64,000 bases of DNA from contig NZ_AUNI01000010.1 in NCBI RefSeq assembly GCF_000447795.1, positions 1 through 64,000 on the forward strand. Reading direction: 5' to 3'. Numbering within the stretch: the stretch's first letter is position 1; each line of letters starts with the position of its first letter. Source of the stretch: Bacteriovorax sp. Seq25_V (GTDB taxonomy: Bacteria; Bdellovibrionota; Bacteriovoracia; Bacteriovoracales; Bacteriovoracaceae). Below, one piece after another: positions 34,562-43,281 of the stretch. The notes beneath the pieces are model-generated. The model was not told where the DNA came from and searched no databases. It saw only the letters and a program-made list of their open reading frames with translations. A program made the position numbers and the translations under genes.

Positions 34562-36571
34562 ATGAAAAAAATTAATATATATACTTTGATATTCTCTCTT
34601 TTTATTCAACCTCTATCCTTTGCACAAGATGAAGGTAGCTCTAATATATTTGTGAGAGGTGCAGATAAGGTTGCAGATACTATTGAAGAATTTCAAGGTG
34701 GAGAATACGGTATTGGGAAGAATGTCGCAAGACCACTTTCGAAATATTTAATCAAGCGAGCAGGGACACCGGGTTTCTTTATTTCAAAATATATGAGTTA
34801 TCGCAAGCAGATGAATCAGCCAATCTGTTCTACGTCTGCAAAGTTAAATCATGTTGGCTATATGCTAACTCTTACTTCTGATATCACAAATCATGTTATC
34901 ACTTGGAAAAATGGGAGAGACCTAAAAAAAGAGTTTGAAGGCGAAGCAGGTGAATTAGAAAAATACGCTCAAGAGAATAAGCTTGGTGAGGATAAAAATA
35001 CAAAAATCCCTGAAGATAAAAGAGATGTTCATCTCAAGGCAATTGATTATCAAATTAGGTGGGAGACTCTCGAGCAGAAACGACTAAACTTGTATCGTAC
35101 TCTAAAATATCCTGCTCTTGGATTGTTCTTAACAAGTCAAATTCTAACGACACAAGAGATGCTAGCACAAGCTTCAACAGCAGGAAGTGCGGCTGCAGCA
35201 GAAGAGTCTTGCTGGAACACACAAAAGGTTGTTAAGGAAGCTGAGGAGAAAAAGACTCAAGGTCTTAATGATGCTGCTGCAGAAGCTGAAAAGAAGATTG
35301 TCGAAACTAAAGAAGAAAAGCCGACTCCTTGGTATTTGAAGCCATTCATGTGGATGGGAGAGAAGTTAAGTTCTGCAGGCTCTTATTTGAAGCAGAAGGG
35401 AAAGGATATCAGAAACTCAGATACATATAAGACCCTTAAAGACCACAGAAAGGGAAAGGGGGTTAAATCTGAGTATGGTGCTGATGGAAAAGCAAAAGCA
35501 GATGTACAGACTATCCGAGAAGATAACTCTGCTGCTTATGCAGAAGAAATGATTATTAATGTTATAGAAGAGTTTAAGGGTGAAGATAAATCAAAAGGCA
35601 TTGGTGGAAAATTAAAATCAGAGGCCATTGATATTGGAACACGTTATGCCGTTCGAACAATGTTGAATACACAACGAGAAGCGGTTGATAAATTCATGAG
35701 AAGTCCAACAGGAAGATATCTCGTAATAGGACAAAATATTTACATTATCTATTCTGATTTTCAGAGTATTGAGGCACAAGTAAAGTACTCAAAAGAAAAA
35801 AAAGAAACACTTGAGTACTTAAAGTCTAAGTATACTGGTTCTATTGAAAATCGCCAAGAGACAACACTTTTTGAACTAGAGTATCAAAAAATATTTCTTC
35901 AGGTCCTAGATGTTATAGCTCCAGAGGTTTATGCGATGATCGATGGTGATAAAATGAAAAATGAATTAAGTTTATGTATTTCGGATATTGGATGCGAAAA
36001 GTCTTACCAGTTCTTCAGCGAAGATATGAAAACAGTGTTTGCAAATTACCCTGTGGAAGATCAAAAGAAGATGGGGGAAACATTAAAAAGTAGTTATGCG
36101 CTTGAGCATTTTATCAGAAGCCAGAAGAAGGGTGTTGTTTTCGCAAATTATGACATGAAAAAAATGAATGAAAGTATTGAAAGAGATGTGAAAATTGTCG
36201 AAGAGAATGCAAATATTCTGAATGATAAGAAAATGATACCTATAGCTCAATTAGAAAAATCAACTAAAGCAGATTTTGATGAATATTTTAATTTTTATTC
36301 AGGAATGCTTAGGCCAGACTTTAATACAATTACATTTGAGCAGGTTCAAAAATTATCTAATGGAAGAATAGTAAAACCAAAGGCTAAAAAGGTTACTCTG
36401 GAAAGTCAGAATGTGGCGTTAAAGACAGAATCAAATAAAGAGACAGAAGATCTCGATTTGAAAGAAATTGAAAAAAAACGGTTTCAATATAATATTTTGT
36501 ATAAAAAAGATGATAATATTTGGCTGAAAATTCATCAACGTTACAAGAAAAAATATAAGGACCTACTTTAA
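34562..36571 (+). CDS. large secreted protein of unknown function
   Basis: This 669-residue protein begins with a signal peptide (1-21, cleaved near SFA-QDEG). The middle contains an Ala/Glu/Lys-rich segment of coiled-coil type (about 220-260), and the rest is lysine- and glutamate-rich and mostly helical with two cysteine pairs (CISDIGC near 475 is one). A hydrophobic stretch near residue 180-200 may be membrane-associated. No family is recognised. The C-terminus is very basic (RYKKKYKDLL), and the stop lies in the loop of a hairpin shared with the convergent M16 gene. Confidence 0.65.
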   Translation: MKKINIYTLIFSLFIQPLSFAQDEGSSNIFVRGADKVADTIEEFQGGEYGIGKNVARPLSKYLIKRAGTPGFFISKYMSYRKQMNQPICSTSAKLNHVGYMLTLTSDITNHVITWKNGRDLKKEFEGEAGELEKYAQENKLGEDKNTKIPEDKRDVHLKAIDYQIRWETLEQKRLNLYRTLKYPALGLFLTSQILTTQEMLAQASTAGSAAAAEESCWNTQKVVKEAEEKKTQGLNDAAAEAEKKIVETKEEKPTPWYLKPFMWMGEKLSSAGSYLKQKGKDIRNSDTYKTLKDHRKGKGVKSEYGADGKAKADVQTIREDNSAAYAEEMIINVIEEFKGEDKSKGIGGKLKSEAIDIGTRYAVRTMLNTQREAVDKFMRSPTGRYLVIGQNIYIIYSDFQSIEAQVKYSKEKKETLEYLKSKYTGSIENRQETTLFELEYQKIFLQVLDVIAPEVYAMIDGDKMKNELSLCISDIGCEKSYQFFSEDMKTVFANYPVEDQKKMGETLKSSYALEHFIRSQKKGVVFANYDMKKMNESIERDVKIVEENANILNDKKMIPIAQLEKSTKADFDEYFNFYSGMLRPDFNTITFEQVQKLSNGRIVKPKAKKVTLESQNVALKTESNKETEDLDLKEIEKKRFQYNILYKKDDNIWLKIHQRYKKKYKDLL

Positions 36572-40324: not shown

Positions 40325-40369
40325 TTCAAGAAAAAGCTAATAAAGTCGATAAATTACGCGAGGTAATTT

Positions 40370-42418
40370 ATGCGTATTTATATTTTCTTACTAATGTTTT
40401 TAACAATTGTTTCTTGTGGTCATGTTGATAAACGTGGACCAGATTCTATAAATGATGAAATTAATATCATTGCCGGCCAACAGTGGAAGAATCTAAAGCA
40501 AGAGCGAAAATTAGAAGTCTATAAGATTAGAAATAACTTAATCAAATTTATGCTTGAGAGTTGCTACAAAACTGATGCTCAAAAAATAGAAGCATTTAAG
40601 CAAGCTCAAGCTTATCTAGTCGATTCAACTGAAAAACTTGGATTTAATATTAAAAACGATAAGCTTGGAAATTCTGATGTTTATAAAGTTATTTTAGATC
40701 CTCCTAGATGGACTCTTAAAGACGAAGTTGAGTGGATGAATGCTCAGGTAAAGAAAACTAATCCTTCTGCTTTAAATGTAGATGGGACTTCATACCTCTC
40801 TCACTTATCTGCACTTGATATTGGAAGTCTTCCTGACATTCAAGAGAATGATGTTTTTTCTAATCAAGATTTAAGTGAATTGATGACAGCTTTAAAGTCA
40901 AACAATGCTTCTGATGAAGTTCCACTACTAGTCGTCAATAAGTTTGAGAATAAGGTAACTACTTATTTTGATAAAATTAGAAACCTTGGAACAGAGCTAG
41001 CTGCAACAGGACAAGTTAATATTGGAAACGAGGAAGCTGAAAAATTCTTTGTAAAGTTCCTCGATTACTATTATTCAAATGTCGATATCAGTGTGATTAA
41101 AAATATATTAAATGATGTCGTTGATATTGGAAGAGAGCCAACTCAAATGGAGCTGGTGCAAGTTATGTTCAAAAATTCTGGACCAGGTCTTGGGAAAACA
41201 TTACAGCAAATGGGGAAAGATCCAAATATGGGTGATTCCCTCGCCGAAGTGATATCAGTTTTAGAAGATGATGGAAAAGCTGTTCCACAATATTTAGTTG
41301 AGAGAACAGTTAAAGCTGATAAAGGTGGATTTAGAGTATCTAAAATCAGTGAGAAGCCTCTTGGGACTGGAACTATGGCCCAGGTTAACAAAGCAAGTCT
41401 AACGAGAAATGGCATAAGTGAAGTTGTCGCACTGAGGTTTTTAAAACCTGGAATTGAAGCAAGGGTGAACGAAGACCTAAAAATCTTAAAGGACTTTATA
41501 GAAAAAATGGGTAATGAGGGCGAATTGTCAGAAGACTTTCTTCCTAGTGCAAGAAAACTCGTAGAAAGTATTTCAACTTTCTTAAAGTCAGAGCTTGATA
41601 TTGCTGATGCCATTAAAAAACAAGATTATGCTAGAAAAGTATATGAGCAAAAAATAAATGTTGTAATTGATAAAAAGAAGTACGAAGTGGATATTAAAGT
41701 ACCTAAGGTTTATTATCCGGAGACGGGTAAGAAAACGAAACTTCATATTCAAGAGTTTATTACATTTGGAGAAAAATTCTCTTCTCTCGATGATAAATTT
41801 GCTAGGTCTGCAGTTGCTAAGGCGATAATGCAAACATGGTTTGAAGAAGCATTAATTAAATCTGGATTTGTGCATAGTGATCTTCACCAAGGTAACTTTA
41901 CTGTTCGAAATGTTACCCCAGACTCGGCACAGGTTGTTCTTTTTGACTTTGGGATGAGTGAAACTTTGACCAAAGATACCCGCCAATCATTTATCATGAT
42001 TGGTGCAGGTGTTGAATTTAAGAAGCCTGCTTTGATTGCAGATGGTATCCTTTTAATGGATAAAGAGAAAGCCAGCAGACAAGCTCGAAAAGAGCTAATC
42101 AAAAAAATTACAGCAGAAATTAATCATATTGATAAAACTGAAGATTGGATTGTTTGGGCCTTAAAAGAGGGGCATCTTAAAAATGATCAGCTTGGAACTT
42201 TGGCACGTGGTGGAGTTCTCGTCTCTCAACTAGGAAAAATCGTCGGTAATGAAACAATGCATGAAGATATTGTAGAAGACCTTTTGGCTAAAAATGCAAT
42301 TAAGGCCTTTGGGAAAAATAGTGATTTTCCTTTAACTAAAGGACAAGTATTTAGAATTGGGACGTCATCTTGTGCTAAAAGCATCAAGAGTTTTTTTTCT
42401 TTCGGTAAGTCTAAGTAA
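40370..42418 (+). CDS. lipoprotein with ABC1/UbiB kinase-like domain
   Basis: This 682-residue protein begins with a lipoprotein signal, FLTIVSC with Cys16, and a GAGG site before the ATG. Residues 20-300 are an unrecognised helical region. A kinase-like domain of ABC1/UbiB type lies at about 320-600: KPLGTGTMAQVNKASL stands in place of the alanine-rich loop, VVALRFLKPGI has Arg where VAVK has the ATP-binding lysine, HSDLHQGNF near 500-508 is the catalytic loop and DFGMS at 525-529 the metal-binding motif. Export by a lipoprotein signal is unexpected for this family. The altered motifs suggest a degenerate or ATP-independent protein. It could also be inner-membrane anchored facing the periplasm. 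Confidence 0.8.
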   Translation: MRIYIFLLMFLTIVSCGHVDKRGPDSINDEINIIAGQQWKNLKQERKLEVYKIRNNLIKFMLESCYKTDAQKIEAFKQAQAYLVDSTEKLGFNIKNDKLGNSDVYKVILDPPRWTLKDEVEWMNAQVKKTNPSALNVDGTSYLSHLSALDIGSLPDIQENDVFSNQDLSELMTALKSNNASDEVPLLVVNKFENKVTTYFDKIRNLGTELAATGQVNIGNEEAEKFFVKFLDYYYSNVDISVIKNILNDVVDIGREPTQMELVQVMFKNSGPGLGKTLQQMGKDPNMGDSLAEVISVLEDDGKAVPQYLVERTVKADKGGFRVSKISEKPLGTGTMAQVNKASLTRNGISEVVALRFLKPGIEARVNEDLKILKDFIEKMGNEGELSEDFLPSARKLVESISTFLKSELDIADAIKKQDYARKVYEQKINVVIDKKKYEVDIKVPKVYYPETGKKTKLHIQEFITFGEKFSSLDDKFARSAVAKAIMQTWFEEALIKSGFVHSDLHQGNFTVRNVTPDSAQVVLFDFGMSETLTKDTRQSFIMIGAGVEFKKPALIADGILLMDKEKASRQARKELIKKITAEINHIDKTEDWIVWALKEGHLKNDQLGTLARGGVLVSQLGKIVGNETMHEDIVEDLLAKNAIKAFGKNSDFPLTKGQVFRIGTSSCAKSIKSFFSFGKSK

Positions 42419-42495: not shown

Positions 42496-43281
42496 ATGAA
42501 AACTATTCTAGCCGTAATGCTATCTTTGCAAGTTTTTGCAAATCTCCCGTGGGGAAACTTAGAAAATGTAAATGCAACCTATTCTTCACCTGAAGGGAAG
42601 GCCACTGCAAAGTATCTTAATCTTGAAGGATTTGGAGAATACTCATCTCCCGAACTATTTGTAAAAAATAATGAAGGAATTCTTGTTTTTTCTTTTGAAG
42701 ATAAGAAATTTGAAATTGATCTTTCTTTATTTGCAGTTAACGATGCAGATAATGTTAAAGTTAAGAACCTCAATCTTGTAAATAACAAAGAAAAAATTAA
42801 TCTTAATTTCGATAGTATCTATGCCAAAGCAGCTCTAACAGATGCAAAAATTCACAATGTGGAATTTGATTGTAAGAGAGAGGCAATACATGATGATATG
42901 TATGGAGACCTTTTTCAAACGTGTTTCACAAATTCTGATATTTTCTTTAAAAGATTTGATTATTACTCTGAAGAGAGAAGTTTTAAAAACTTTATTGATG
43001 AAAAAACTAACCATACAGATATTGTGGTTAAGAATATTGAAATTCATGTTAAAGATGAAAGATTCAATGGTAAATTAGAAAGTAATCTTACTTTTGGAAT
43101 TGATGTGAGATTTGATGGCGAAGTAAAGTATTATGCAGATAAGCAAATGGTTGAATTAAAAGTTGATAGTGTCAGAGCGTCTCTTTTCAGTATCAGATCA
43201 AAGGTGTTTAAAGAATTAGATGGAAATGTTCCGGATAATATTGTTGTTGATGAACCATATATCAGAATTTATATTCCTTAA
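42496..43281 (+). CDS. secreted protein with one Cys-pair beta unit
   Basis: This 261-residue protein has a signal peptide (1-15) and is beta-rich. Its single cysteine pair C126/C143 stands in VEFDC...TCFTNSDIFFKRF, matching the third unit of the 28365 protein (ELNC...ECLKNGEVRIPRL). The C-terminal part, KQMVELKVDSVRASL and a final YIRIYIP, also parallels that protein. They are paralogues of different unit number. A TATAAT at 42449-42454 may be its -10, but the -35 is poor. Function unknown. Confidence 0.72.
   Translation: MKTILAVMLSLQVFANLPWGNLENVNATYSSPEGKATAKYLNLEGFGEYSSPELFVKNNEGILVFSFEDKKFEIDLSLFAVNDADNVKVKNLNLVNNKEKINLNFDSIYAKAALTDAKIHNVEFDCKREAIHDDMYGDLFQTCFTNSDIFFKRFDYYSEERSFKNFIDEKTNHTDIVVKNIEIHVKDERFNGKLESNLTFGIDVRFDGEVKYYADKQMVELKVDSVRASLFSIRSKVFKELDGNVPDNIVVDEPYIRIYIP

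Follow-up and report, generated by a model that had tools for sequence, protein, structure and literature searches.

Proteins of the UbiB family are old and widespread, and the purpose of their use of ATP is unsettled. The periplasm and the rest of the cell envelope normally hold no ATP. What, then, would a UbiB protein do if it were exported? A locus in Bacteriovorax sp. Seq25_V raises this question. In the 64,000-nt stretch of DNA that was analysed (the window), a first-pass annotation made from the sequence alone described a 682-aa reading frame with an ATG start, evident in the window sequence and ORF list, as an ABC1/UbiB kinase-like protein carrying a lipoprotein signal. The gene and its 5' end comprise the following features:

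40360-40363 (+): Shine-Dalgarno sequence GAGG, 6 nt 5' of the ATG, read from the sequence
40370-42418 (+): predicted exported protein of the UbiB/ABC1 family, 682 aa, from the ORF, the Pfam ABC1 score (89.4 bits) and a fold match to COQ8A (Z 16.2)
40370-40414 (+): predicted signal peptide, residues 1-15
40406-40417 (+): lipobox IVSC, residues 13-16, with the C16 codon at 40415-40417 and Gly at the +2 position

A scan for promoters and terminators gave matches at chance level only.

The family assignment rests on both profile and fold. Pfam ABC1 (PF03109) matched the protein with an E value of 2.7e-25 (89.4 bits against a cut-off of 22.9), as it did all 15 members of relative set A3, while the UbiB quinone biosynthesis equivalog TIGR01982 reached 85.3 bits, far under its cut-off of 487.55. 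The structural comparison with UbiB/ADCK3 that had been called for gave the same answer: an AlphaFold2 model built on seven orthologues (pLDDT 77, pTM 0.73) found COQ8A (5i35) as its top match by Foldseek and VIA-align (E 5e-9, Z 16.2, rmsd 3.9 over 342 residues, model residues 261-646), followed by mycobacterial ABC1 proteins and then RIO kinases. A PDB sequence search with the single protein returned a chance match only; a profile built with the exported relatives reached COQ8A. The protein thus carries both the ABC1 profile and the UbiB fold, and it lacks the Ala-rich loop (AAAS) of UbiB/ABC1 proteins. Because the Pfam definition tolerates an altered loop, we file it as a variant within a branch of the superfamily rather than as a canonical UbiB. 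The genome also encodes two more ABC1 proteins whose motifs are canonical, so the gene in the window is an additional copy.

Two regions precede the kinase-like core:

40427-41149 (+): all-helical N-terminal region outside the UbiB fold, residues 20-260 (AlphaFold2 pLDDT 82, pTM 0.81 when modelled alone)
41150-41335 (+): UbiB N-terminal extension, residues 261-322, with K276 and Q279 of the KxGQ motif (KTLQ here), aligning with COQ8A from residue 261 onward

The first-pass annotation had described a novel helical region of 280 residues. Its helical character stands, but its length shrinks to about 240 residues, since residues 261-322 align with the known UbiB extension. For residues 20-260 we found no Foldseek match under E 1, Z scores of at most 4.0 and no convincing PDB relative; judged from the model, this is a missing match and no proof of a new fold. 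One residue of the helical region, Y234, is shared by 44 of 45 Arg-type relatives (defined below) and by 7 of 7 exported Lys-type proteins. Within the extension, the Lys and Gln of KxGQ are present in all 45, and the Gly position is not kept (KLLQ also occurs).

To place the protein we collected 45 distinct relatives that share an Arg at the position of the beta3 lysine (Arg-type), drawn from Bacteriovoracaceae, Bdellovibrio and other families of the phylum; these sequences are not independent, many come from metagenome-assembled genomes (MAGs), and identity falls to about 21%. The N-terminus of the window protein, MRIYIFLLMFLTIVSC-GHVDK, has a positively charged n-region, a hydrophobic core and the lipobox, as expected of a bacterial lipoprotein, and signal peptidase II is encoded in the same genome. 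A hydrophobic signal segment was found in 42 of 42 intact Arg-type N-termini and in none of 37 cytosolic-type ABC1 proteins, with signals called heuristically by hydrophobicity and lipobox pattern rather than by SignalP; the three relatives left out are L072 and L151, which lie at a contig end, and L066, which is interrupted by a stop. Export through Sec, as first proposed, is therefore matched by every orthologue in which it could be judged, and none was found that lacked the signal. Lipidation fares differently. The pattern predicts a lipid on C16 of the window protein, where the IVSC lipobox is confirmed, but a lipobox Cys occurs in only 16 of the 42 (a count that takes in the TSSC of L059, recognized by eye, and leaves out L138, a false match of SPase I type). 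Bdellovibrio homologues, like some of those from Bacteriovoracaceae, carry signals of the SPase I type instead (AWA-A, AQA-V, TPAQA-I), so lipidation is a lineage-specific trait and not one of the whole family; of the two orthologue traits put forward for checking, the Lys-to-Arg change is conserved throughout and the lipobox cysteine is not.

A second cysteine provides further information on the compartment:

42371-42373 (+): C668, lone C-terminal cysteine; 44 of 45 Arg-type proteins carry a Cys 5-18 residues before their end

The sole exception ends at a contig edge, and in many Arg-type proteins the mature chain contains no other Cys. The exported Lys-type proteins L042, L045, L047 and L103 contain exactly one Cys in total, again in the C-terminal tail, and cytosolic relatives have no such pattern. 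Judged by its distribution, the cysteine supports a location in an oxidising compartment and points to a possible intermolecular disulfide or modification site. Could the protein nevertheless be an ordinary cytoplasmic ABC1 protein, with an N-terminus that is hydrophobic by chance or that anchors it in the reverse orientation? The signal calls are computational, and L036 and L037 have a hydrophobic N-terminus with neither a clear lipobox nor a clear SPase I site. We nonetheless consider this very improbable: the signal persists in 42 of 42 intact N-termini at identities down to 21% against 0 of 37 in cytosolic ABC1, signals of both the SPase II and the SPase I type are present, the lone-Cys pattern fits the outside, and the positive n-region argues for a C-out orientation. 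That the protein is both a UbiB/ABC1 member and exported is the part of our reading in which we have high confidence.

Orthologues were found in about 20 of 129 genomes sampled from the order, all of the same family, in almost every member of one large genus of family f6, and in a number of further families of the phylum. Among the carriers with names are Bacteriovorax sp. MedPE-SWde and DB6_IX, Bacteriovoracaceae and Halobacteriovorax MAGs, and Bdellovibrio bacteriovorus strain kdesi. In a scan of 84,980 species, which depends on exact matches to short peptides and may overlook others, the Arg-type occurred only in records named Bacteriovorax, Bacteriovoracaceae, Halobacteriovorax, Bdellovibrio(nales), Oligoflexia and two MAGs. 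We found no paper in the open literature on an exported bacterial ABC1/UbiB protein, from Bdellovibrio or elsewhere, which is weak evidence of absence.

In a maximum-likelihood tree of 78 proteins, computed with the trait columns left out, a single branch with 98/96 support separates all exported proteins from the cytosolic ABC1 proteins. A single cytosolic-looking protein, L048, lies on the exported side; it is at a contig start and its N-terminus is uncertain. The Arg-type proteins together with L154 form a branch with support 96/94, and the placement of the long branches L043, L152, L151 and L046 is unsure. Each trait requires two changes under parsimony. As far as sequences can tell, the simplest history is that export arose once while the Lys was present, since some exported proteins still have it, and that one Lys-to-Arg change followed, with L154 as a retention or a reversal. 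We hold it to be probable that the exported branch has a single origin. Six exported ABC1 proteins (L042, L043, L044, L045, L047 and L103) keep the Lys and the alphaC Glu, and mostly the Ala-rich loop; their active sites look like those of a canonical UbiB but would sit outside the cytoplasm.

How, then, has the active site changed in the Arg-type branch? Profile alignment equates R356 with COQ8A K358, A414 with E411, G334 with A339 and E299 with R301. The relevant elements are:

41264-41266 (+): E299, an acidic residue gained at the position of COQ8A R301; 45 of 45 Arg-type proteins plus L154
41363-41374 (+): G332-T-G-T335 loop in place of the Ala-rich loop, with G334 at the position of COQ8A A339; G334 in 45 of 45
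41435-41437 (+): R356 in place of the beta3 Lys (VALRFLKP, codon AGG); Arg in 45 of 45 Arg-type, Lys in 44 of 44 other ABC1 proteins
41591-41623 (+): ExD motif and alphaC (ELDIADAIKKQ), with A414 in place of the salt-bridge Glu; T28/A14/S2/G1 at position 414 in the 45 Arg-type proteins
41873-41896 (+): catalytic loop HSDLHQGN, residues 502-509, with D504 and N509; 45 of 45
41945-41953 (+): DFG, residues 526-528, with the metal-binding D526; 45 of 45

Three observations of the first-pass annotation hold across the branch, recurring, as the signal does, well above chance: the replacement of the beta3 Lys by Arg; the altered loop, LGTGTMAQV at residues 331-339, which reads GTGT or GVGT among relatives and always has Gly at the A339 position; and the retention of HSDLHQGN and DFG, so that the HxDxHxGN and DFG catalytic and metal-binding residues are all in place. 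The alignment indicates that the change to the pocket is nonetheless larger than was then seen, with the alphaC Glu lost in all Arg-type proteins and an invariant E299 new. In COQ8A, K358 and E411 form the canonical salt bridge. The corresponding beta3 Lys-alphaC Glu pair is missing here on both sides, with Arg in 45 of 45 at one end and A, T, S or G in 45 of 45 at the other. Glu is present at position 414 in 42 of 44 other ABC1 proteins, with L044 and L154 as the exceptions; the apparent loss in L044 proved to be an hmmalign shift, and MAFFT shows the Glu. L154 is a real intermediate: it is exported, keeps the Lys, has lost the Glu, has the GTGT loop, has gained E299, and is the sister of the Arg-type L150. 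Cytosolic ABC1 proteins have Q, R or K at position 299 and never Glu. Because Glu 299 is seen where Glu 414 is missing, the sequences suggest that the acidic partner may have moved from 414 to 299.

We also searched for a WNK-like rescue, in which a new Lys takes over from the lost one. K359 is conserved, but R or K stands at this position in most other ABC1 proteins too, and K276, likewise considered, is the ordinary KxGQ Lys. R613 is invariant in 45 of 45 and lies in the region of COQ8A R611, which in COQ8A forms a salt bridge with the catalytic Asp.

A purely non-catalytic scaffold had been put forward among the options for this protein. It would then be an envelope pseudokinase whose fold binds a partner, for instance a peptidoglycan synthase activator or the product of a neighbouring gene, and performs no chemistry. 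The loss of the Lys-Glu pair in 45 of 45, the ATP not expected in the periplasm and the large helical N-terminal region without known relatives would all fit such a scaffold, and so would part of the gene neighbourhood, in which one candidate partner lies next to the gene:

42496-43281 (+): exported 261-aa protein without a Pfam family, possible partner; adjoins the ABC1 gene in L034 and L035, second gene downstream in L039

The closest relatives, L034 and L035, share the gene order of the window, with a HemW-like radical SAM gene upstream and the 261-aa gene downstream, and in L039 a homologue of the 261-aa protein is two genes away. In five Bacteriovorax genomes (L056, L057, L059, L060, L061) an LPP20-family gene, a lipoprotein gene, LpoB (E 1.9e-22) and a further, TPR-like lipoprotein gene precede the ABC1 gene with a gap of 15 bp; the block is placed at about 5 kb upstream. 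The outer-membrane lipoproteins LpoB and LPP20 are unrelated to the ABC1 protein in sequence, and in the genome of the window the LpoB block lies on another contig (L141:3504-7790) without an ABC1 gene; the link is therefore suggestive for one lineage only, where it also fits a role in the envelope more generally. No neighbour gene common to all lineages was found. Two other exported proteins were observed near these genes: in L061 (7993-9948, reverse strand) a cytochrome c-FTR1 iron permease fusion, a single exported protein, adjoins the ABC1 gene, and in the window a protein of 669 aa that has a signal peptide but matches no Pfam family is encoded a few genes upstream (34562-36571). Against the scaffold stands the catalytic machinery itself: the catalytic Asp, the metal-binding Asn and Asp, and K276 and Q279 are invariant in 45 of 45 despite identities of about 21%, and scaffolds usually lose some of these. 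A scaffold without chemistry is thus the less likely option, and we rate it as rather unlikely.

Comparison with characterized proteins shows what this pocket might still do. The window protein has in common with COQ8A/ADCK3 and bacterial UbiB the fold, the KxGQ-type extension, ExD, HxDxHxGN, DFG and the invariant Arg near R611. It differs from them in being exported, in the beta3 Arg, the lost alphaC Glu, the GxGT loop and the Glu at the R301 position, and also in its extra helical N-terminal region, its C-terminal Cys and the absence of a visible C-terminal transmembrane hairpin. In COQ8A, A339G is hyperactive, favouring ATP and giving autophosphorylation, and R301W lowers ATPase activity with ADP binding retained (PMC7877690). 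The ATPase activity of COQ8 and of E. coli UbiB is stimulated by analogues of CoQ intermediates (PMC7263595). The initial statement that known UbiB proteins face the cytoplasm has exceptions in yeast, where two UbiB proteins, Cqd1 and Cqd2, are oriented towards the mitochondrial intermembrane space and influence how CoQ and phospholipids are distributed (PMC10214851, PMC8346625). They share with the window protein a UbiB domain beyond the inner membrane, in a compartment matching the periplasm, and offer a precedent for a role in lipid and CoQ homeostasis; unlike it, they are membrane-anchored mitochondrial proteins with ATP in their compartment, and their canonical kinase-like residues are reported to be necessary. 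KSR2 also has an Arg at the beta3 Lys position with the catalytic Asp and metal ligands kept, and it binds Mg-ATP and is reported to be active (PMC4718504), although it is a eukaryotic cytosolic relative of protein kinases from another superfamily branch.

The KSR2 precedent raises the possibility of a true ATP-using kinase or ATPase outside the cytoplasm, running on ATP freed from prey or leaked into the envelope. G334, which corresponds to a natural A339G, would fit this, and many carriers belong to Bdellovibrio or Bacteriovorax, genera with predatory type species. However, in many Bacteriovoracaceae the protein would be attached to the envelope of the predator itself, the alphaC Glu has gone along with the Lys, and not all carriers are known predators (some are MAGs); we consider such an enzyme quite unlikely.

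We propose instead that the window protein belongs to a monophyletic exported UbiB/ABC1 branch of the Bdellovibrio phylum, directed outward by a Sec signal that is here of the lipoprotein type, in which the phosphate side of the pocket is rebuilt (K358R, E411A, A339G and R301E in COQ8A numbering) with the catalytic Asp and both metal ligands kept. The mature protein would lie on the periplasmic side, membrane-anchored in Bacteriovorax and free in Bdellovibrio, and its lone C-terminal Cys would probably form an intermolecular disulfide. Mg and a phosphate-bearing ligand would still be bound, with the role of the missing Lys-Glu pair taken by R356 and perhaps also by E299. Since the UbiB relatives COQ8, UbiB and Cqd1/Cqd2 handle lipids, the predicted substrate is an envelope lipid, which would be a phospholipid or else an isoprenoid (menaquinone, undecaprenyl phosphates). 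We give this whole reading, a periplasmic or outer-membrane UbiB-fold protein whose rebuilt, Mg-competent phosphate pocket acts on an envelope lipid without cytosolic ATP, about an even chance. Its component of lipid handling without cytosolic ATP, which is drawn by analogy, is more tentative and stands somewhat below that. A more specific form, in which the four fixed substitutions would serve Mg-dependent periplasmic phosphate chemistry without ATP and a phosphorylated envelope lipid such as undecaprenyl phosphate would be the ligand or donor, is speculative, and we think it unlikely.

In Bdellovibrio-group predators, a family that drives lipid handling with ATP thus seems to have been given a new use in the cell envelope. 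A natural branch that lies outside the ATP compartment and is altered at A339, K358, E411 and R301 offers a ready-made test of what the UbiB fold does without ATP, and direct testing is possible because a homologue (L073) is present in Bdellovibrio bacteriovorus, a species with working genetics.
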